Positions 429-9,046 of a stretch of 35,197 nucleotides of DNA are shown here, piece by piece. The stretch is from an uncultured SAR116 cluster alpha proteobacterium. Its GTDB lineage: Bacteria; Pseudomonadota; Alphaproteobacteria; Puniceispirillales; Puniceispirillaceae. The stretch covers positions 1 to 35,197 of the forward strand of contig CABYZM010000016.1 in assembly GCA_902523435.1 (NCBI GenBank), in the 5' to 3' direction. Below the pieces are notes generated by a model. It did no database searches, was not told where the DNA came from, and saw nothing but the letters and a program-made list of their open reading frames with translations. Numbering within the stretch: the first letter of the stretch is position 1; each line of letters opens with the position of its first letter. A program made the translations under genes and the position numbers.

Positions 429-1886
429 ATGCCGGCGATTATGTTTCAGGGAACCGGGTCCAATGTGGGCAAGTCTGTTCTGGTAGCTGGGTTATGCCGG
501 GCCGCAGTCAGACGGGGTCTGCGGGTGGCCCCGTTCAAGCCGCAGAACATGTCTAATAACGCAGCTGTCACAGAAGATGGCGGCGAGATTGGACGCGCAC
601 AGGCCTTACAGGCTAGGGCATGCCGGGTGGCCAGCCATACTGATATGAACCCTGTCTTGCTGAAGCCAGAAACTGAAACCGGGGCGCAGGTAATTGTGCA
701 GGGAAAGCGGCTTAGCAGCCTTACTGCACGTGACTATACCCGGATTAAGCCGCAGCTGATGCCAGATGTGCTGGAAAGTTTCAGACGACTGACAGCAGAT
801 TATGATCTGGTGCTGGTGGAAGGGGCAGGCAGCCCAGCAGAAATAAATCTGCGTAAGGATGATATTGCCAATATGGGTTTTGCGCTAGCCGCAGACGTGC
901 CAGTAATTCTGATTGGAGATATTGACCGTGGCGGGATCATTGCCCAGCTGGTTGGCACAGATGCGGTTCTGCCTGCTGCCGACAGACAACAAATTGTTGG
1001 CTTTATTGTTAACAAATTCAGAGGGGATGTCGAGCTTTTTGACGATGGCTATCAGATGATAAAAGCGCAGACAGGCTGGCCCGGCTTTGGGGTGCTCAGC
1101 TATTTTTGCCAAGCCTGGCAGCTGCCTGCAGAAGACGCGCAGGATATTAGAACACGTCCGTCTTCAGGCCAGATAAAAATTGTATGCCTGAGTCTTTCGC
1201 GCATGGCGAATTTTGATGATCTGGATCCGCTTGTGCATGAAGATAATGTTCAGCTTGTCATGCTACGAGCTGGGCAGGCAATCCCTGGTGACGCTGATCT
1301 GGTTCTGATCCCAGGCAGTAAATCCACCCGCGGTGATTTGGCCTTTCTGCGGGCGCAAGGCTGGGACATTGATCTGCAGGCACATCGGCGGCGCGGCGGC
1401 CATATTTTAGGATTGTGCGGCGGCTACCAGATGCTGGGGGAGGTGATCACTGACCCAGAGGGGCTGGATGGCCTACCAGGAGAGTGTGAAGGGCTGGGAC
1501 TATTGAAGGTGACCACTACGATGGATGCGCAGAAAACCCTGCGTGAGGTGACCGCCCAACATTCCAAAACCGGTCTAACGCTAAAAGGATATGAAATTCA
1601 CCTTGGCAACACAAACGGCCCAGACTGCCAGCGCCCGTTTGCTTTTATCGGGCAAAAAAGAGACAGGCGGGCTGACGGGGCTTGTTCAGAAGATGGTCAT
1701 GTTCAGGGCAGTTATCTGCACGGACTGTTTTGTGAAGATGAATTCCGTCGTGCCTTTCTGACCCGCCTTGGCGCCCCTGTTAGCTCATTATCTTTTGAAA
1801 AAACCGTAGATGATGTCCTTGACCAGCTGGCTGACCATATAGAACAGCAGCTGGATGTGGATGCGATTCTGGCCTGCGCACGCTAA
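429..1886 (+). CDS. cobQ: Cobyric acid synthase (glutamine-hydrolysing)
   Basis: CobQ amidates four carboxylates of adenosylcobyrinic acid a,c-diamide, using ATP and glutamine. The 485 residues match the usual family length. The N-terminal ATPase domain begins with a P-loop-like GTGSNVGKS at residues 8-16, followed by FKPQNMSNN and [12 protein letters not shown]. The C-terminal class I glutamine amidotransferase domain has the nucleophile Cys330 in [10 protein letters not shown] and His431 in GSYLHGLF. Both catalytic residues are therefore present. The ATG at 429 has an AAGGG at about 415-419, nine bases upstream and overlapping the cobO stop. The 3' end overlaps the convergent cobC by four bases: TAA at 1884-1886 here, TAG at 1883-1885 on the other strand. 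Confidence 0.97.
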
Positions 1887-2866
1887 CGGATAATAGCCTG
1901 TTGCAGGCGATCCCACCCGGATGCAGGCGGCAAACCAAGACGCAGCCATTCGTCATTATAGCTGAAAGAACGAGCCCAGATACGTTGTCTTGCCAAATGT
2001 TCCTGCCAGTAGCGGGCATCTGTCATCTGGTAAAGCCGGAACAGGCTGGTCCCCCCAATGGTCTGCCAGCCAGCCAGAGCGGCAATCTGGTCAAGTCGAT
2101 GGGCGTCATGGGCGAGCTGTTCTCTCATGCGGGTGGCCCAGTTCTGGTCTCCCAGAGCGGCTTTGCCGATCGCCAGTGAAGGACCAGATACTGCCCAGTT
2201 GCCAATCCGGTCTGCCATTTTATCAAGCACTGCCTGCTCCCCAATGGCAAAGCCAAGTCTGGCCCCGGCAAGACCATAGAATTTCCCAAAAGACCGCAAG
2301 ACTAGCACATTGTCATGCGCGGCTGTCAGATGCGGACAGACAGACAGGTCCGGCAGCGGATCACAAAAGCTTTCATCGATCACCAAAAACTCCACCCGAT
2401 CAGCTAGCGCAAGCAGTTCTTGTGGCGGCACAGACCGGCCATCCGGGTTGTTTGGGTTAACTATCACCGCAAGATTTGCCCCGACAAGCTGTGAAGCCTG
2501 TGTCTTGCGCGTGACCTGCCAGCCCTGCTGCAAAAGCTGGTACTCATGTTCATTATAGCTGGGATAAAGAACATGTGCTGACAGGCGTAAGCGTTTTTCT
2601 GCCCATAAAAGTGGGTAGATCTGGATCGCCTGCTGAGCACCGGCAAGACAGAGAACGGGCCTTGTGGTCTGATAGCGCGCGGCACCGGCTTTTTCCACAG
2701 CCTTGGACAATTGCTTGTCCGGCAGCGCTGTCCAAACAAAGCTGTCCAACTGAGGCAAGGGATAGGGGTGCGGGTTTATCCCGGTTGACAGATCAAGCCA
2801 TTCGGCACGCTTGCCGCCAAACCTGGCAATGGCCGTGTCTAAATCCCCTCCATGTTCTGTTGTCAC
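1883..2866 (-). CDS. cobC: L-threonine-O-3-phosphate decarboxylase (PLP-dependent)
   Basis: This is a fold-type I aminotransferase homologue that makes (R)-1-aminopropan-2-ol O-2-phosphate, the linker attached to cobyric acid. The evidence is the characteristic start (HGGDLDTA), [14 protein letters not shown], the PNNPDG motif near residues 138-143, Asp164 in VIDESF, and the PLP lysine Lys195 in [16 protein letters not shown]. It is called CobC in Pseudomonas denitrificans and CobD in Salmonella. Its 327 residues fit the family. The start codon is GTG at 2866, overlapping the cbiB stop as GTGA, which indicates translational coupling in a reverse-strand operon (phosphatase, cbiB, cobC). The pairing with cbiB is typical because CbiB uses its product. 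Confidence 0.93.
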
Positions 2867-3834
2867 ACGCCTGCCCCGTTACCCGCCAAAAAAACAAGAA
2901 CCGCCCCAGACAAAAGTAACAGGCTGACCACCCAAAGCAAGCGGCTGTAAAGGCGCAGCGCAAGAGAAATGTCAGCTGCGCTTGGGTCACGCCCAGTTTT
3001 ATTTAACCAAGGGTCCGCTGTAACAGTGTCCTCATAATGGCGTGGGCCGGACAGGCGTATGTCAAGAGCGGCAGCAACAGCAGATTCAGGCCAGCCTGCA
3101 TTTGGTGAGCGGTGGCGGGGCGCATCTGCCACCATTATCTGTACCGCTCGGCACCGTTGTTTGGCCAGCAGGGCGTAGATAAAGCCAGTCAGACGTGCAG
3201 GTATCAAATTGACCAGATCATCAAGCCTTGCAGCGGCCCAACCAAAGGCCACATAAGTCTTGTTTCTATAACCAATCATCGAATCAGCTGTATTAATTGC
3301 CTTATAAACCACAACACCAGGCAGACCGAAAAGAACCCCCCAAAACAATGGTGCCGTTACCCCGTCTGATGTGTTTTCAGCTAGACTTTCGATGGCCGCA
3401 CGGCTGATGCCTGCAGTGTCGAGCTGAACAGAATTCCGGCCTACAATCATCGCCACAGCCTGTCGGGCGGCAGGCAAATCCCCTGCGTGAAGCGGCGTTT
3501 CAACAGCACGGACATGAGAGCACAGTGATTTTGCAGCCAGAAACGGCCATACCAGAACAGCGGTCAGCACGATTCCAGCCCACCCAGAAGGCAGAAAAGA
3601 CATCACAGACAGACAGGCCGCAGCCAGAAGACAAAGCAGCACAGACACGCTGATAAACCCGGTCATATAGCGAACAGGAGCAGACCAGTCCGGGTTGTTC
3701 AGCCTGTTTGCCAAGGCACTGATGATATGCCCTATACCCACAACAGGATGCGAAAAGCGGCGATAGACCGGTTCGGGCCAGCCAATAAGCCGGTCGAGGC
3801 AAAGCGCGAGCAGCATGGAAAGAAAAAAGGACAT
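2863..3834 (-). CDS. cbiB: Adenosylcobinamide-phosphate synthase
   Basis: CbiB (CobD in P. denitrificans nomenclature) joins cobyric acid to aminopropanol phosphate at the inner membrane. The 323-residue protein has several hydrophobic segments and the family motifs LDRLIGWPEPVYRRFSHPVVG near the N-terminus, SLAENTSDGVTAPLFWG, AINTADSMIGYRN, and FGWAAARLDDLVNLIPARLT. DAPRHRSPNAGWPESAVAAAL follows. The ATG at 3834 is preceded by GGTGAG at a suitable distance. The gene ends in a four-base overlap with the cobC GTG. The upstream phosphatase gene ends 35 bases before this start, so all three probably share a transcript. Confidence 0.95.
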   Translation of the reverse strand: MSFFLSMLLALCLDRLIGWPEPVYRRFSHPVVGIGHIISALANRLNNPDWSAPVRYMTGFISVSVLLCLLAAACLSVMSFLPSGWAGIVLTAVLVWPFLAAKSLCSHVRAVETPLHAGDLPAARQAVAMIVGRNSVQLDTAGISRAAIESLAENTSDGVTAPLFWGVLFGLPGVVVYKAINTADSMIGYRNKTYVAFGWAAARLDDLVNLIPARLTGFIYALLAKQRCRAVQIMVADAPRHRSPNAGWPESAVAAALDIRLSGPRHYEDTVTADPWLNKTGRDPSAADISLALRLYSRLLWVVSLLLLSGAVLVFLAGNGAGV

Positions 3835-3869
3835 ATTCTCACCGAAAAGATAAGATCAGAGCCCCAAAA

Positions 3870-4451
3870 TTAGCCACCCTGATTGATGCAGACAAGTGAA
3901 AACTGGTTATCAGGCAAAACCCGCAGATGCGTTATAGACAGCGGGTCAATTTCACATTTCAGCGCCGCTTCAGGACTGTCAAACACCAGCGCAAGCACTG
4001 CGCGAATCACCCCTGCATGGGCAAAGACAGCGATCTGCTGTACATCCACATCCTGTAGCAGGGAGTAAAACGCTGGCTGTATGCGGGCACATAAATCCAA
4101 AAAACTTTCCCCGTTTGGCGGCGTAAACTTGGCCAGTTCCTGTCCATTCATCGAACCCAGATCAGGCAAATCTGGATAAGCGAGGCCTTCCCAGTCACCA
4201 AAATACTGCTCCCAGAACGCCGCGATCAAGTGCGGCGGTGTGTGGTCAGGAAACAGCGCCTGGCAGGTGCGCACACATCGCTTTGCAGGGCTGCTGCAAA
4301 GATACTGGCAGTCAGCTAGTTTCTGCTGCAGGCGTTCTTGCGTGGCAGTTTCAATCTGCCCGATATCAGCATCTGTATGGCCATAAAGATAGCCTGGCGG
4401 GCAAGCGGGCGCATGACGGATAAGCCAGATATCGCGATTGTAATGAGACAT
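3870..4451 (-). CDS. Histidine phosphatase family protein, probable alpha-ribazole-5'-phosphate phosphatase
   Basis: This is a phosphoglycerate-mutase-like phosphatase. LIRHAPACPPGYLYGHTD near the N-terminus carries the catalytic Arg12-His13, and VFAHAGVIRAVLAL near residue 150 carries the second histidine. SSPAKRC and FGDWEGL are also family-typical. By position it is the likely enzyme that dephosphorylates alpha-ribazole phosphate or cobalamin 5'-phosphate (CobC in Salmonella; a different enzyme from the decarboxylase called cobC here). I chose the ATG at 4451 (193 residues) over an upstream in-frame GTG at 4493 because MSHYNRDIWLIRH matches the family N-terminus and the GTG has no ribosome-binding site. 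The substrate is inferred from context; only the fold is clear from sequence. Confidence 0.82.
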   Translation of the reverse strand: MSHYNRDIWLIRHAPACPPGYLYGHTDADIGQIETATQERLQQKLADCQYLCSSPAKRCVRTCQALFPDHTPPHLIAAFWEQYFGDWEGLAYPDLPDLGSMNGQELAKFTPPNGESFLDLCARIQPAFYSLLQDVDVQQIAVFAHAGVIRAVLALVFDSPEAALKCEIDPLSITHLRVLPDNQFSLVCINQGG

Positions 4452-4502
4452 ACTTAAAAAACGTTCCCTTTTTTCCTCAGAATAGAGTAACACCTTATAT
4501 CT

Positions 4503-5030
4503 ATGGCACTGACACTATTGGTAACCGGCGGGACTAGGTCTGGAAAGAGTAATTTTGCTGAAGAGCGGGTCAGAGATTTTGGCCAGCATCTTGGCAAACG
4601 CCTTGTCTATATCGCCACGGCAGAAGCCTTTGATGAGGAGATGGCGGCGCGGATCGCCCGTCATCAGCGCAGACGCGGGCCGGAATGGCACACTGTGCAT
4701 GCACCGCTTGACCTTGTGCGGGCTGTCACGCAGACAGATGGAAAAGGCCCCTGCGTTATTGATTGTCTCACCCTGTGGCTGAGCAATCTGATGCTGGCTG
4801 GACAGGATACAGAAGTCGCAGCAGACGCGTTGGTTGCCTCCCTTGCCAGCCGAGCTGATCCTGTGATTCTAGTGACGAATGAAGTGGGCAGTGGCATTGT
4901 TCCCGAAAATGCGCTGGCAAGGCGGTTTCGGGATGAAGCTGGTCGATTGAATCAAATCGTCGCGCAGGCGGTTGATGAAGTCTATGTCTGTATGTCGGGC
5001 ATACCGGTGAAAATTAAACCGCGACAATGA
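4503..5030 (+). CDS. cobU: Bifunctional adenosylcobinamide kinase / adenosylcobinamide-phosphate guanylyltransferase
   Basis: CobU (CobP) phosphorylates adenosylcobinamide and transfers GMP to it, giving the GDP-activated intermediate used by CobS. The 175 residues are the normal length. Visible motifs are the P-loop GGTRSGKS at residues 9-16, YIATAEAFDEEM, IARHQRRRGPEWHT (containing the guanylylated-histidine region), VIDCLTLWLSNLM, and VTNEVGSGIVPE near the end. It starts 51 bases from the divergent phosphatase gene. I see no convincing Shine-Dalgarno sequence before the ATG. Its TGA overlaps the cobT ATG as ATGA at 5027-5030. Confidence 0.96.
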   Translation: MALTLLVTGGTRSGKSNFAEERVRDFGQHLGKRLVYIATAEAFDEEMAARIARHQRRRGPEWHTVHAPLDLVRAVTQTDGKGPCVIDCLTLWLSNLMLAGQDTEVAADALVASLASRADPVILVTNEVGSGIVPENALARRFRDEAGRLNQIVAQAVDEVYVCMSGIPVKIKPRQ

Positions 5031-6079
5031 TGATCAATAGCAAGACTGAACATAATAGGATAACAGAACAGATGATCACCTTCACGGATCTGAACCAGAT
5101 TTCTGCCTTTGCACACAACCTGCCTGAAAAAGACGAGGTAGTTGAGGCAGCTGCTCTAGCGCACCAGAACCAGCTGACTAAACCGCCGGGATCGCTGGGA
5201 CGACTGGAAGAGCTGGCCGTATTTCTGGCTAGTTGGCAAGGGCAGGTCAAACCCTCCTTACAGACAGCACAAGCGATTATTTTTGCTGGAAATCATGGCA
5301 TCTGCGCGCAACGCGTAAACCCATTCCCACAGAAGGTGACTTCTCAGATGGTGGCCAATTTTGAGGCTGGCGGCGCTGCCATAAACCAACTTTGTGCAGA
5401 AAGCAGAGCTGAACTGAAAGTAGTGCCGCTGACACTTGATGTGCCGACAAAGGATTTCACAAAAGAAGAGGCGTTAAGCGAGTCTGAGCTGTGTGCAGAA
5501 ATGAGTAAAGGTGCAAAGGCTGTGAACTTGGATGCAGATATCCTTATTCTGGGCGAAATGGGCATTGGCAATTCAACAATCTCATCTGCGCTGGCCGCAT
5601 CTGTGTTTGGCGGTGATGTGGCACGCTGGGTCGGAGCCGGCGCGGGATCTGATGCAGCCGGAATTGCCCACAAACAGGCAGTCATACAAAAAGGCCTTGC
5701 CAAAAATGGTGCCCGTCCCGGTTTGGGGGCCCTGCTCGCTTTTGGCGGGCGTGAGCAAGCTGCAATTTGCGGCGCCATTCTGGCAGCGCGTTCGGCGCGT
5801 ATCCCTGTTTTGTTGGACGGATTTATCTGTACAGCAGCAGCTGCGCCCCTTTTCGGGCTGACGCCAGCGAGTCTCGACCACTGCCTAGTCGGTCATATGT
5901 CTGCAGAACCCGGACACCAGCATCTGTTGACGGCAATGGGTAAGTCAGCCATCTTGAACCTTGAGATGCGGCTCGGAGAAGGCAGTGGAGCAGCCTTAGC
6001 TTTATCTATATTGCGCGGCGCGGTTGCATGCCATAACCAGATGGCCACCTTTCAGTCAGCAGGCATAGTTGGCGGATGA
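5027..6079 (+). CDS. cobT: Nicotinate-nucleotide--dimethylbenzimidazole phosphoribosyltransferase
   Basis: CobT makes alpha-ribazole phosphate from nicotinate mononucleotide and the lower-ligand base. The family signatures are LTKPPGSLGRLEELA, IFAGNHGI, LGEMGIGNSTISSAL, GLGALLAFGGREQAA, and LRLGEGSGAALAL-type sequence with the catalytic glutamate at residue 318, counted from this start. The 350 residues match the family. The start at 5027 has no Shine-Dalgarno but overlaps the cobU stop as ATGA, consistent with coupled translation. An in-frame ATG at 5072 would remove only a poorly conserved 15-residue N-terminus and cannot be excluded. The stop overlaps cobS in the same ATGA manner. Confidence 0.96.
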   Translation: MMINSKTEHNRITEQMITFTDLNQISAFAHNLPEKDEVVEAAALAHQNQLTKPPGSLGRLEELAVFLASWQGQVKPSLQTAQAIIFAGNHGICAQRVNPFPQKVTSQMVANFEAGGAAINQLCAESRAELKVVPLTLDVPTKDFTKEEALSESELCAEMSKGAKAVNLDADILILGEMGIGNSTISSALAASVFGGDVARWVGAGAGSDAAGIAHKQAVIQKGLAKNGARPGLGALLAFGGREQAAICGAILAARSARIPVLLDGFICTAAAAPLFGLTPASLDHCLVGHMSAEPGHQHLLTAMGKSAILNLEMRLGEGSGAALALSILRGAVACHNQMATFQSAGIVGG

Positions 6080-6843
6080 AAAGACTGCTCCGGCACATCA
6101 CTGAATTCCAGATGGCTTTTCTGCTGCTGACCCGCCTGCCTGCGGGCCGTCTGGCTGGTAATCCGCCTGAGCTGGCTGCTGCCAGCTGGGCCTTCCCGCT
6201 GGCCGGAGTTGCTGTAGGATGCGGGATCGGCGGCAGTTATATGGGCTTTGTGCTGTTGGGGCTGCCAGCGCTTCTCGCAGCTGTTCTAGCGCTGGCGGTT
6301 GGCCTTGTCCTGACAGGCGCATTGCATGAGGATGGGCTGGCAGATTGTGCGGACGGATTTGGAGGCGGACAGACTCGCGCCCGGAAACTGGAGATTATGA
6401 AAGACAGCCGTGTTGGCACTTATGGGGTATTGGCCCTGATTATAACCATGGCTGCTCGCATCGCGACCCTGTCCACCTTCCCAGCTGACCTAAATAGCCT
6501 GATGCTGATTATCAGTCTAGCTATGTTCAGCCGCCTAAATATGTTGGCCTGTCTGGCCTATTTGCCTGCAGCCCGATCCGACGGGCTGGGACATTCAGCT
6601 AGCAAACCACATTCCCTTTCAGCTGGAATCGCCACTGTTTTTTGTGTGCCAGCGGTGCTGTACTGCAGCAGCCTGATTATTTATGCGCTGCTCGCTGCAG
6701 CCATGGCCGGGATGTGTTTTGCCGTTTTTTCAAGACGACAGATTGGCGGGCAAACAGGTGATGTGTGTGGAGCTGTGCAAGTACTGAGTGAGACAGCAGG
6801 CTGGCTGTGTCTAGCCTCCCTATTTACGTCGGCGTCTGTCTGA
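6076..6843 (+). CDS. cobS: Adenosylcobinamide-GDP ribazoletransferase (cobalamin 5'-phosphate synthase)
   Basis: CobS is the integral membrane enzyme that joins adenosylcobinamide-GDP to alpha-ribazole (phosphate), completing cobalamin assembly. The 255-residue protein is strongly hydrophobic. It contains FLLLTRLPAGR near the N-terminus and the diagnostic loop GALHEDGLADCADGFGGG, followed by KLEIMKDSRVGTYG. The acidic residues of this loop bind the metal in the family. A C-terminal RRQIGGQTGDVCGA motif is also typical. The ATG at 6076 overlaps the cobT stop by four bases, making cobU-cobT-cobS a tightly coupled operon. A hairpin and T-tract about 50 bases downstream may end the transcript. 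Confidence 0.96.
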   Translation: MKRLLRHITEFQMAFLLLTRLPAGRLAGNPPELAAASWAFPLAGVAVGCGIGGSYMGFVLLGLPALLAAVLALAVGLVLTGALHEDGLADCADGFGGGQTRARKLEIMKDSRVGTYGVLALIITMAARIATLSTFPADLNSLMLIISLAMFSRLNMLACLAYLPAARSDGLGHSASKPHSLSAGIATVFCVPAVLYCSSLIIYALLAAAMAGMCFAVFSRRQIGGQTGDVCGAVQVLSETAGWLCLASLFTSASV

Positions 6844-6890
6844 CTTTAGCAGACCTTATGCAGCCAAACACTGAACTGGCAAAGCGTAGT

Positions 6891-6937
6891 TGTCGCCGCC
6901 AGAAAATAAGATGGCGACATTTTACTACTTTTTTTTG
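6891..6937 (+). terminator. Candidate intrinsic terminator of the cobUTS operon
   Basis: A 7-bp perfect stem, TGTCGCC (6891-6897) with GGCGACA (6913-6919), has a 15-base loop and is followed by TTTTACTAC and a run of eight T (6930-6937). The loop is long and the T-run is not immediately adjacent, so the call is tentative. Its position between cobS and the riboswitch would insulate the cobUTS transcript from the regulated permease unit. Confidence 0.45.
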
Positions 6938-6949
6938 ATTCACTGCAGA

Positions 6950-7125
6950 ACTCTTAACCTTGTAAGGAGAGGATCATCTATTTTTAAAAGGGAATCTGGT
7001 GCGGTAAAAACCAAGTCCAGAGCCGCCCCCGCGACTGTAAGTGGAGAGTGCATATCAAAATGCCACTGGGAAACTGGGAAGGCTGATTTTGCATGATGAC
7101 ACACAAGCCAGGAGACCGGCCTTAC
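6950..7125 (+). promoter_or_regulatory. Cobalamin (B12) riboswitch
   Basis: The aptamer's conserved blocks occur in the right order: AAAAGGGAATCTGGTGCGG (6987-7005), the GCCCCCGCGACTGTAA block (about 7023-7040), the B12-box region GCCACTGGG...CTGGGAAGGC (7062-7084), and AGCCAGGAGACCGGCC (7106-7121). The leader lies immediately upstream of a CbiM-like permease gene, so adenosylcobalamin is expected to repress that gene. The outer boundaries are approximate. It does not precede the cobU, cobQ or cbiB units visible here. Confidence 0.95.
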
Positions 7126-7138
7126 CTTTTTTACCAAC

Positions 7139-7156
7139 ACCGTCGGGGAAGACGGT
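7139..7156 (+). promoter_or_regulatory. Hairpin between riboswitch aptamer and ribosome-binding site
   Basis: ACCGTC (7139-7144) and GACGGT (7151-7156) form a perfect 6-bp stem with loop GGGGAA, ending a few bases before the AAGGAG (about 7162-7167) of the permease gene. The location suggests part of the expression platform. No T-run follows, so control of translation initiation is more likely than termination; this is inference. Confidence 0.45.
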
Positions 7157-7173
7157 TAAATAAGGAGACGAAA

Positions 7174-7851
7174 ATGCATATTGAACCAGGCGTCGTTAAC
7201 GAAGTGAAAATGGCTCTCAGCTATGCAACAGCCGCTGGCGCGACCGGTCTGACAATCAAATCTGCGATCGACACAATGCGGCAGTCCAACATTGCAGCAC
7301 TTGCCCTTCGATTCATCATGGCAACTTTATTAACTGTATTTTTCTTTGAGGTTCTGCCAAAATTTCCCGTTGGCGTATCAGAAGTACATTTTATCTTTGG
7401 TTCGACCTTATTCCTTTTATTCGGGGCAGCTCCTGCAGCCATTGGTCTTGCTGCCGGCCTAGCCATTCAAGGCCTGTTTCTTGCGCCAGCTGACCTGCCT
7501 CAATATTTCATGAACACAACCACCCTGTTGTTTCCATTATTTGCGATTTCATGGGTTGCGGGGCGGATTATCGCTCCAAATACGCCCTATGTGGATTTAA
7601 CCTACACACAGGTGCTAAAGCTGTCGGCGACCTACCAGACTGGCATTGTGGCCTGGGTGGCATTTTGGGCTTTCTATGGTCAGGGTTTCAGCGCAGAAAA
7701 TATCAGTGCAGTAACCAGTTTTGGTGTTGCTTATCTGTCTGTGATTCTGATCGAACCCGCAGTTGACGTCGCAGTTCTGGCGATCGCCAAAATGAGACGT
7801 GGCATGGCCAGCAGCAGACTGTTAACACCGAGACTGACACAGGTAGCATGA
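7174..7851 (+). CDS. CbiM-like energy-coupling-factor transporter permease (cobalt/corrinoid-linked)
   Basis: This is a 225-residue inner-membrane protein with about six hydrophobic segments (roughly residues 44-61, 73-100, 107-122, 145-168 and 178-196, with a weaker one near 12-30). It begins MHIEPG, retaining the Met-His start that CbiM/NikM proteins use in metal binding. His72 precedes FIFGSTLFLLFGAAPAA, which resembles the CbiM core. ATG 7174 is preferred to upstream in-frame codons at 7093 and 7096 because it follows AAGGAG by seven bases and those lie inside the riboswitch. No cbiN, cbiQ or cbiO gene is adjacent. Riboswitch control points to cobalt or corrinoid uptake; the substrate is not determined by sequence. 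Confidence 0.85.
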   Translation: MHIEPGVVNEVKMALSYATAAGATGLTIKSAIDTMRQSNIAALALRFIMATLLTVFFFEVLPKFPVGVSEVHFIFGSTLFLLFGAAPAAIGLAAGLAIQGLFLAPADLPQYFMNTTTLLFPLFAISWVAGRIIAPNTPYVDLTYTQVLKLSATYQTGIVAWVAFWAFYGQGFSAENISAVTSFGVAYLSVILIEPAVDVAVLAIAKMRRGMASSRLLTPRLTQVA

Positions 7852-7898
7852 CGGTTGTGAGCTTGAAAGGTACATTTCTGAATATTAAATTATGAAAT

Positions 7899-7928
7899 CG
7901 GAAAGGCTATACAGCCTGACCGGTTTTT
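7899..7928 (+). terminator. Candidate intrinsic terminator after the CbiM-like gene
   Basis: CGG-AA-AGGCT (7899-7908), a loop ATAC, and AGCCT-GA-CCG (7913-7922) form a stem with an internal mismatch. GTTTTT follows immediately. It lies 47 bases after the permease stop and could also serve the convergent aldolase gene, although the T-run on that side is weaker. Confidence 0.55.
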
Positions 7929-7981
7929 GTGAAGCAGAGATGATGAAAAACAAGCCCAGCGGATAAAAGTTTATGCGCAGA

Positions 7982-9046
7982 TTAAGCAGAAATCTTTGGA
8001 TCAAGTTGGCCGTTCGCATAAAAGCGGGCCATATCGGCAAGGGAAATGGGCTTTATTTTATGAGCGTTTCCAGCTGTACCAAACCTCTCAAATCGATTCC
8101 GGCATAACGTTTCCATCGCGTCTTGAGCTGGCTTTAGAAATTTGCGCAAATCAAATTCTGACGGGGCGGTCTGCGCAACTTTACGAATCACGCCTGCCAT
8201 AGCTAGGCGACAATCTGTATCAATATTGACTTTGCGCACACCATGCTTGATGCCCCGTTCAATTTCCTCTATCGGCACCCCATAAGTTTGCGGCATTTCA
8301 CCCCCAAATTCATTGAATATATCCTGCAGCTCCTGTGGCACAGAAGAGGAGCCATGCATAACTAAATGGGTTTGCGGCAGGCGGCGGTGAATATCCTCAA
8401 TTACATGCATAGCCAGAATCTCACCGTCTGGCTTGCGCGAGAATTTATAAGCTCCATGACTCGTACCCATCGCAATCGCTAGCGCATCAACCTGTGTGGC
8501 TTCCACAAAATCAACAGCCTGTTGCGGATCTGTCAGCAACTGCTCTTCCGATAATCTTCCTTCTGCACCATGGCCATCTTCCTGGTCACCCATTCCGGTT
8601 TCAAGAGAGCCAAGAACGCCGAGCTCCCCTTCAACAGACACGCCTCCATGATGGGCCATCTGTGTGACATCAGCTGTAATTCTCAAATTATAATCATAAG
8701 ACGCGGGAGTTTTGCCATCTGCTTCGAGCGAACCATCCATCATTACAGATGTAAAGCCATATTGAATAGCAGTCATGCAGGTTGCTTGTGAGTTGCCATG
8801 ATCCTGATGCATGCAGATAGGAATATGCGGATACATCGCTTCTAAGCCTTTAATCAGAGACTGAAGAATAAGGTCACCTGCATAGCCCCGAGCGCCCCGG
8901 CTGGCTTGAAGAATCACAGGGGAATCCACACTGTCAGCTGCTTTCAGGATCGCAAGGCCCTGCTCCATATTATTGATGTTGAACGCTGGAATCCCATAGT
9001 CATGTTCAGCCGCATGATCCAGAATTTGTCTCAAGGTCACAAGCAT
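7982..9046 (-). CDS. fba: Class II fructose-bisphosphate aldolase
   Basis: This zinc-dependent aldolase interconverts fructose 1,6-bisphosphate with dihydroxyacetone phosphate and glyceraldehyde 3-phosphate. Evidence includes [11 protein letters not shown] near the start, the metal-site MHQDHGNS (His80 and His83), [30 protein letters not shown], and [14 protein letters not shown]. The long form (354 residues) with the MGDQEDGHG-type insertion belongs to the subgroup also found in Calvin-cycle operons, but nothing else here shows carbon fixation. The ATG at 9046 is preceded by GGATGAG. fbp lies upstream on the same strand with 94 bases between, so the pair is likely co-expressed for gluconeogenesis. 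Confidence 0.96.

Follow-up and report, generated by a model that had tools for sequence, protein, structure and literature searches.

The genome of an uncultured SAR116 cluster alphaproteobacterium contains a cobalamin riboswitch followed by a single CbiM-family gene, and we consider it likely that the pair is a B12 OFF switch on a stand-alone CbiM-type Co2+ importer, serving corrin synthesis without CbiN, CbiQ or CbiO. Both elements lie in the window, that is, the whole stretch of DNA that was analysed (35,197 nucleotides). In the proposed mechanism, plentiful adenosylcobalamin would act through the aptamer to lower the expression of the gene behind it, whose product would bring Co2+ in for corrin synthesis, with His2, His72 and the amino group of its N-terminus as ligands of the ion and with no need of CbiN, CbiQ and CbiO. 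The cell would in this way limit the entry of cobalt, rather than the transcription of the nearby cob genes. The direction of this regulation is assumed by analogy with known B12 riboswitches.

The aptamer (RF00174) occupies positions 6948-7138 of the forward strand and was recognised at full length (model positions 1-189 of 189) with 106.1 bits and an E value of 8.2e-26, the gathering threshold of the family being 31.5 bits. It was the sole RNA-family match when the whole window was searched with cmscan, and it is also the one RF00174 match in the assembly to which the window belongs (1,500,303 bases, 64% complete), which may lack further aptamers for being incomplete. The original prediction, made from the sequence alone, that all conserved aptamer blocks are present was thus borne out, and its coordinates were correct to within a few bases. 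The same result bears on the possibility that the element is a decaying remnant, leaving cbiM in this lineage with what amounts to constitutive expression. Although a sibling, the SAR116 single-cell genome AG-325-M05, has only a degenerate remnant in the 251 bases upstream of its own homologue (88% identical, among the matches listed), the window aptamer matches all model positions at 106 bits, and we consider its decay very improbable. The AG-325-M05 locus (L065:1-251), where the central block of the aptamer has been deleted and a search with RF00174 finds nothing even at E values as high as 5, can itself be regarded as a natural riboswitch loss.

The end of the aptamer is separated from the ATG at 7174 by 35 nt, and an AAGGAG Shine-Dalgarno sequence is found at 7162-7167. 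A possible expression platform spans 7128-7167 (forward strand), where a weak stem (7128-7133/7161-7166) closes around a hairpin at 7139-7156 and could mask the Shine-Dalgarno sequence. In the fold of 7127-7200 this stem is no better than in shuffled sequences (z -0.92), and its role as expression platform is only suggestive. According to PMC10203341, B12 riboswitches of Gram-negatives control translation and, by analogy, this is the level at which the window aptamer should act. Between cobS and the aptamer there is a terminator-like, T-tailed hairpin with a run of eight T (6890-6936, forward strand; -15.8 kcal/mol and z -2.86 in the fold of 6880-6945). A pattern scan of 6780-8020 for terminators flagged neither this hairpin nor the one found 3′ of cbiM, and the terminator/promoter scan was uninformative.

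The open reading frame behind the aptamer (7174-7851, forward strand) starts with Met-His and encodes a protein of 225 aa that reaches 49.5 bits with the CbiM profile PF01891 (cut-off 23.1) and 18.9 bits with the NCBI CbiM equivalog (NF004905 and its kin; cut-off 173), so that, judged by profile scores, the product is a divergent CbiM. As had been proposed, it is the only gene that follows the aptamer, and no cbiN, cbiQ or cbiO comes after it: on its strand no ORF of at least 90 aa is present before the convergent fba (PF01116; 7982-9046, reverse strand). The terminator-like hairpin predicted 3′ of cbiM was observed as a T-tailed structure (forward strand, approximate ends 7894-7927; z -3.95 in the fold of 7845-7985), but the pattern scan did not register it. 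Upstream, the region 429-6843 carries cobQ, a cobD-type decarboxylase gene, cbiB, a phosphatase gene, cobU, cobT and cobS, the last three (PF02283, PF02277 and PF02654) forming a unit at 4503-6843 on the forward strand. The cmscan search of the whole window gave no second aptamer for any of these genes, and the cobU, cobQ and cbiB units therefore lack one, as originally stated. With a single cbiM under the aptamer and the cob genes devoid of it, the view that uptake, and not late synthesis, is what stands behind the switch is supported at this locus.

In CbiM and NikM, a Met-His N-terminus and an internal histidine have a metal-binding role, and both are found here: M1, H2 and H72 are invariant in an alignment of 38 sequences, all of which match PF01891 at E up to 0.001. 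Aligned through a distant homologue (L049) as intermediate, H72 falls on the residue numbered H67 in CbiM of PDB 4m58/4m5b, which we take to be a metal ligand. PMC6828968 states the role of these CbiM/NikM residues to some extent. The predicted structure is middling (pLDDT 75.2, pTM 0.72); its resemblance to the M chain of 5x3x is weak (TM 0.49, Z 5.8, 183 residues) and exceeded by that of unrelated chains, and the family profile found no match among PDB sequences at E up to 1.

With the CbiMNQO group I ECF cobalt transporter, the window gene shares CbiM homology (PF01891), the Met-His and internal His residues and the B12 context; it differs in having no adjacent CbiN, CbiQ or CbiO and in that no CbiQ-type T component, which CbiMNQO would contain, was found in the genome. 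In the search for a separate CbiQ that the original prediction had suggested as a check, the family (PF02361) was detected in 0 of 41 order-level relatives, of which 29 are of good quality and one is the window's own genome (64% complete). Of the genomes that encode a close homologue, 15 are of good quality, and among these CbiQ-family proteins were missing in 8 and found elsewhere in the genome in 7; considering all carriers, the search was positive in 9 of 22, and it was so in 10 of 14 control genomes. CbiN was present in 3 of the 22 carriers and missing in 19. As the CbiQ family was detected in none of the 41 relatives and is missing from 8 of the 15 carriers, we consider it probable that the CbiM-family protein needs no ECF motor to function. 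A tblastn search for CbiQ near the best 80 loci (see below) also gave 0 matches, a weak result given that some query ORFs were poorly chosen.

These same data can be read as the traces of an ordinary CbiMQO whose parts have been dispersed, the T and A components of its ECF motor being either supplied by a different ECF system or encoded in that third of the genome which the assembly lacks. The incompleteness of the window's genome and of that of another SAR116 carrier, G004 (77% complete), leaves room for such a motor, and the CbiQ-family proteins that 7 of the 15 carriers encode elsewhere could be shared. We nevertheless consider a dispersed CbiMQO unlikely, given that PF02361 was detected in none of the relatives and is missing from the other 8 carriers, in a search that did recover it in 9 of 22 carriers and in 10 of 14 controls.

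The linkage between riboswitch and gene extends across the protein family. At the class level, matches were obtained in 24 of 385 genomes, its own included, 16 of the others being close (56-63% identity), and a scan of GTDB genomes confirmed at least 571 relatives, the best 80 of which were kept. The nearest named homologues, among the matches listed, are those of UBA2954 (97% over 211 residues, at a contig edge) and of AG-325-M05 (88%), which assigns the window to the SAR116 cluster or a near relative of it. An aptamer is located 30-151 nt (median 46.5) 5′ of cbiM in 64 of the best 80 loci, or 64 of 78 assessable ones, as 2 of the 16 riboswitch-less loci have almost no upstream DNA. In the class set, a riboswitch precedes 11 of the 16 close homologues and 4 of the 4 distant ones scanned (L053-L055 were outside the aptamer scan). 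The latter four (L049-L052) form a distant CbiM-like group with 32-33% identity that also starts with Met-His. In addition, a second cobalamin riboswitch was observed just 3′ of cbiM in Cereibacter johrii (L129:2480-2695), and another one about 2.5 kb downstream in four Bradyrhizobium loci (L089, L092, L104 and L118).

The loci without a riboswitch are informative about the substrate. Among the 14 assessable ones in the best 80, six (L075, L077, L112, L119, L122 and L136) are near nitrile/thiocyanate hydratase genes, with the CTLCSC motif in five of them, and L077, which has split beta subunits, is taken to be a thiocyanate hydrolase. Three more are near corrin/tetrapyrrole genes (L107, L128 and L116, the last with one tetrapyrrole methylase only), four (L079, L106, L117 and L143) show no evident connection with cobalt, and the last one is L065, with its degenerate aptamer. 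The hydratase link requires at least three changes on the protein tree. Since these hydratases use non-corrin cobalt, the riboswitch-less homologues near them point to cobalt ions as the substrate. The protein is also present in 87 plasmid records; in four that were examined, an aptamer was found 47-175 nt upstream in three, and the fourth has a hydratase operon. In this fourth one, a Klebsiella pneumoniae plasmid record, the order is amidase, nthA, nthB, accessory protein and cbiM homologue, and this nitrile hydratase operon (L161:1192-5178), with CbiM as its last gene, lies between IS elements; a Citrobacter freundii plasmid has a CbiM homologue with a score equal to that of the Klebsiella one.

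A second line of evidence comes from the 41 genomes up to the order level; the protein is encoded in only two of these, which belong to one genus. CobN was found in 17 of them (that of G004 being a fragment below the cut-off), and all 17 have one recognised importer, as compared with 1 of the other 24, which is the window's own genome, G000 (Fisher p 1.2e-10). The importers of the CobN genomes are HupE in seven (above a 100-bit line that was drawn after viewing the table), CbtA in seven, CbiM in one and, in two, riboswitch-linked ZnuABC-type systems, which were recognised only directly behind a riboswitch (complete in G012; only the ATPase, at a contig end, in G002). Eight HupE rows of 22.9-42 bits were not counted (G001 twice, G002, G003, G012, G014, G015 and G037); if they were, two CobN-less genomes, G001 and G003, would gain a HupE-family match. 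The relatives have 32 riboswitches, one per genome, 14 of them before an ion importer and 18 before a TonB receptor (TonB targets were recognised by eye, one Pfam check excepted). Ion-importer riboswitches are in CobN genomes in 13 of 14 cases, the other being that of G000, whereas 0 of the 18 TonB riboswitches are in a genome with detected CobN; conversely, the riboswitches of CobN genomes are before an ion importer in 13 of 13 cases and never before a TonB receptor. As the switch precedes known or predicted cobalt importers in CobN genomes and TonB receptors in CobN-less ones, cobalt is again favoured.

The possibility that the protein carries not cobalt but a different metal, for example nickel, or a corrinoid has to be weighed against these patterns. 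B12 riboswitches also control corrinoid receptors (18 of 32 in the relatives), CbiM and NikM are close kin within PF01891, and some homologues have no clear context. By contrast, the links to CTLCSC hydratases that use non-corrin cobalt, the exclusive association of CobN-genome riboswitches with ion importers, and the conservation of the Met-His start and of H72, features shared with metal-binding CbiM/NikM, all speak for cobalt, and no hydrogenase or urease neighbours were noticed in passing when the 14 riboswitch-less loci were inspected by eye. We thus find a substrate other than cobalt quite improbable. Where the original prediction left the choice between cobalt and a corrinoid, the genomic evidence favours the former.

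Other observations in the relatives concern what is placed behind the switch. Two siblings in which CobN gave no match, G001 and G007, have a riboswitch, a TonB receptor and a DUF6580 gene near fba, with neighbours that are also those of the riboswitch-cbiM pair in the window (by eye). As riboswitch-TonB stands in the siblings where the window has riboswitch-cbiM, the locus would hold an uptake gene under B12 control, of one type or another according to lifestyle. The DUF6580 (PF20221) membrane protein encoded with the TonB receptor behind the riboswitch in siblings without a CobN match (L153:10372-13251 and L154) is a candidate for the inner-membrane step in the uptake of corrinoids. Similarly, the ZnuABC-type system (PF00005, PF00950, PF01297) that follows a cobalamin riboswitch at L156:15-2985, and of which only the ATPase is visible behind the riboswitch at L155:179-952, is a candidate B12-controlled cobalt ABC importer. 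Additionally, CobN matches in two blocks (from about 1 to 700 and from about 810 to 1220 of the model, some 100 intervening positions being unmatched) in G002, G012, G014, G017 and G022; the two blocks are within one frame (with one TGA in G017), and we regard them as a CobN variant whose middle part is divergent or missing.

As to corrin synthesis, cobQ is present in the window's genome, and its cut-off was passed in 16 of the 41 genomes, namely 15 with CobN plus G000. CobN was not found in this 64%-complete genome, which has one TP_methylase, like its non-maker siblings; the other two SAR116 carriers, G004 and G421, have three and four corrin-type methyltransferase matches, respectively. The original prediction had also denied control of the synthesis operons, which is correct for the window locus but not as a general rule. 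The aptamer of the relative G008 has hupE, cobW and cobN behind it, and a cobF-like gene comes next after cbiM in 9 of 56 loci (the next-gene counts cover 56 of the best 80, the gene picker having missed cbiM in 24), so the riboswitch may reach synthesis genes in such cases.

The switch and the gene were also placed on trees. In that of the riboswitches, built with the window aptamer, 32 of the 64 cbiM-linked aptamers (every second one) and 29 from relatives, the window lies beside hupE riboswitches with an unstarred support of 89/85. Groupings tested were chosen after seeing the tree: those of the window with all sampled cbiM riboswitches (p 0.009) and with the TonB riboswitches of its genus (p 0.003) were rejected; a grouping with only the seven cbiM riboswitches nearest to it was compatible with the data (p 0.37). 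On the protein tree, the SAR116 proteins are placed beside Rhodobacteraceae L072 (SH-aLRT 89), which suggests that SAR116 cbiM was acquired by transfer.

B12-controlled cobalt uptake is already known, and what is less usual in these results is a CbiM subfamily without partners. CbiMN as a minimal set, B12-controlled cobalt importers and motor-free BioY and BtuM are covered collectively by PMC7689651, PMC2667541, PMC4820897, PMC11109136, PMC6828968, PMC4771312, PMC7299338, PMC10203341, PMC12456174 and PMC7142416. For instance, PMC11109136 names BioY and BtuM as ECF-independent S components, and PMC4820897 cites Kirsch and Eitinger 2014 in this context. Solitary BioY and BtuM, as well as CbiMN without QO, resemble the present case in that a protein of an S-component family is encoded without a motor; compared with CbiMN, CbiN is also missing here in 19 of 22 carriers. 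HupE, CbtAB and ABC-type cobalt importers, each found behind RF00174 in the relatives, have the same switch and the same genomic role, but belong to transporter families unrelated to CbiM; PMC7689651 describes HupE of cyanobacteria as importing cobalt under the control of a riboswitch. It also reports a NiCoT transporter of the NhlF type whose gene lies near that of a cobalt nitrile hydratase and which supplies cobalt for a non-corrin enzyme, a likeness to the hydratase loci described above, although there a CbiM-family protein takes the place of NhlF. Finally, PMC2667541 mentions CbtC and other predicted Co transporters (Rodionov and colleagues) that are B12-linked and frequent in Alphaproteobacteria. 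Going by this description, the partnerless CbiM subfamily may be the already-named CbtC. A literature search, which left most subscription journals outside, returned no description of this CbiM subfamily.

If the protein does act alone, it would provide a minimal model for S-component transport without ATP hydrolysis, a process that PMC11109136 calls unclear for solitary S components, and the annotation “energy-coupling factor ABC transporter permease” on several plasmid records would be corrected. For these marine bacteria, an ecological rule for B12 emerges, in which an ion importer or a TonB receptor behind the riboswitch corresponds to the presence or absence of CobN. More broadly, we lean slightly towards the view that the proteobacterial CbiM subfamily is a widespread one-protein cobalt importer, freed from CbiN, CbiQ and CbiO, that would supply B12 synthesis as well as enzymes with non-corrin cobalt and would be one of several interchangeable uptake modules behind the B12 riboswitch as lineages shift between making and scavenging the cofactor.
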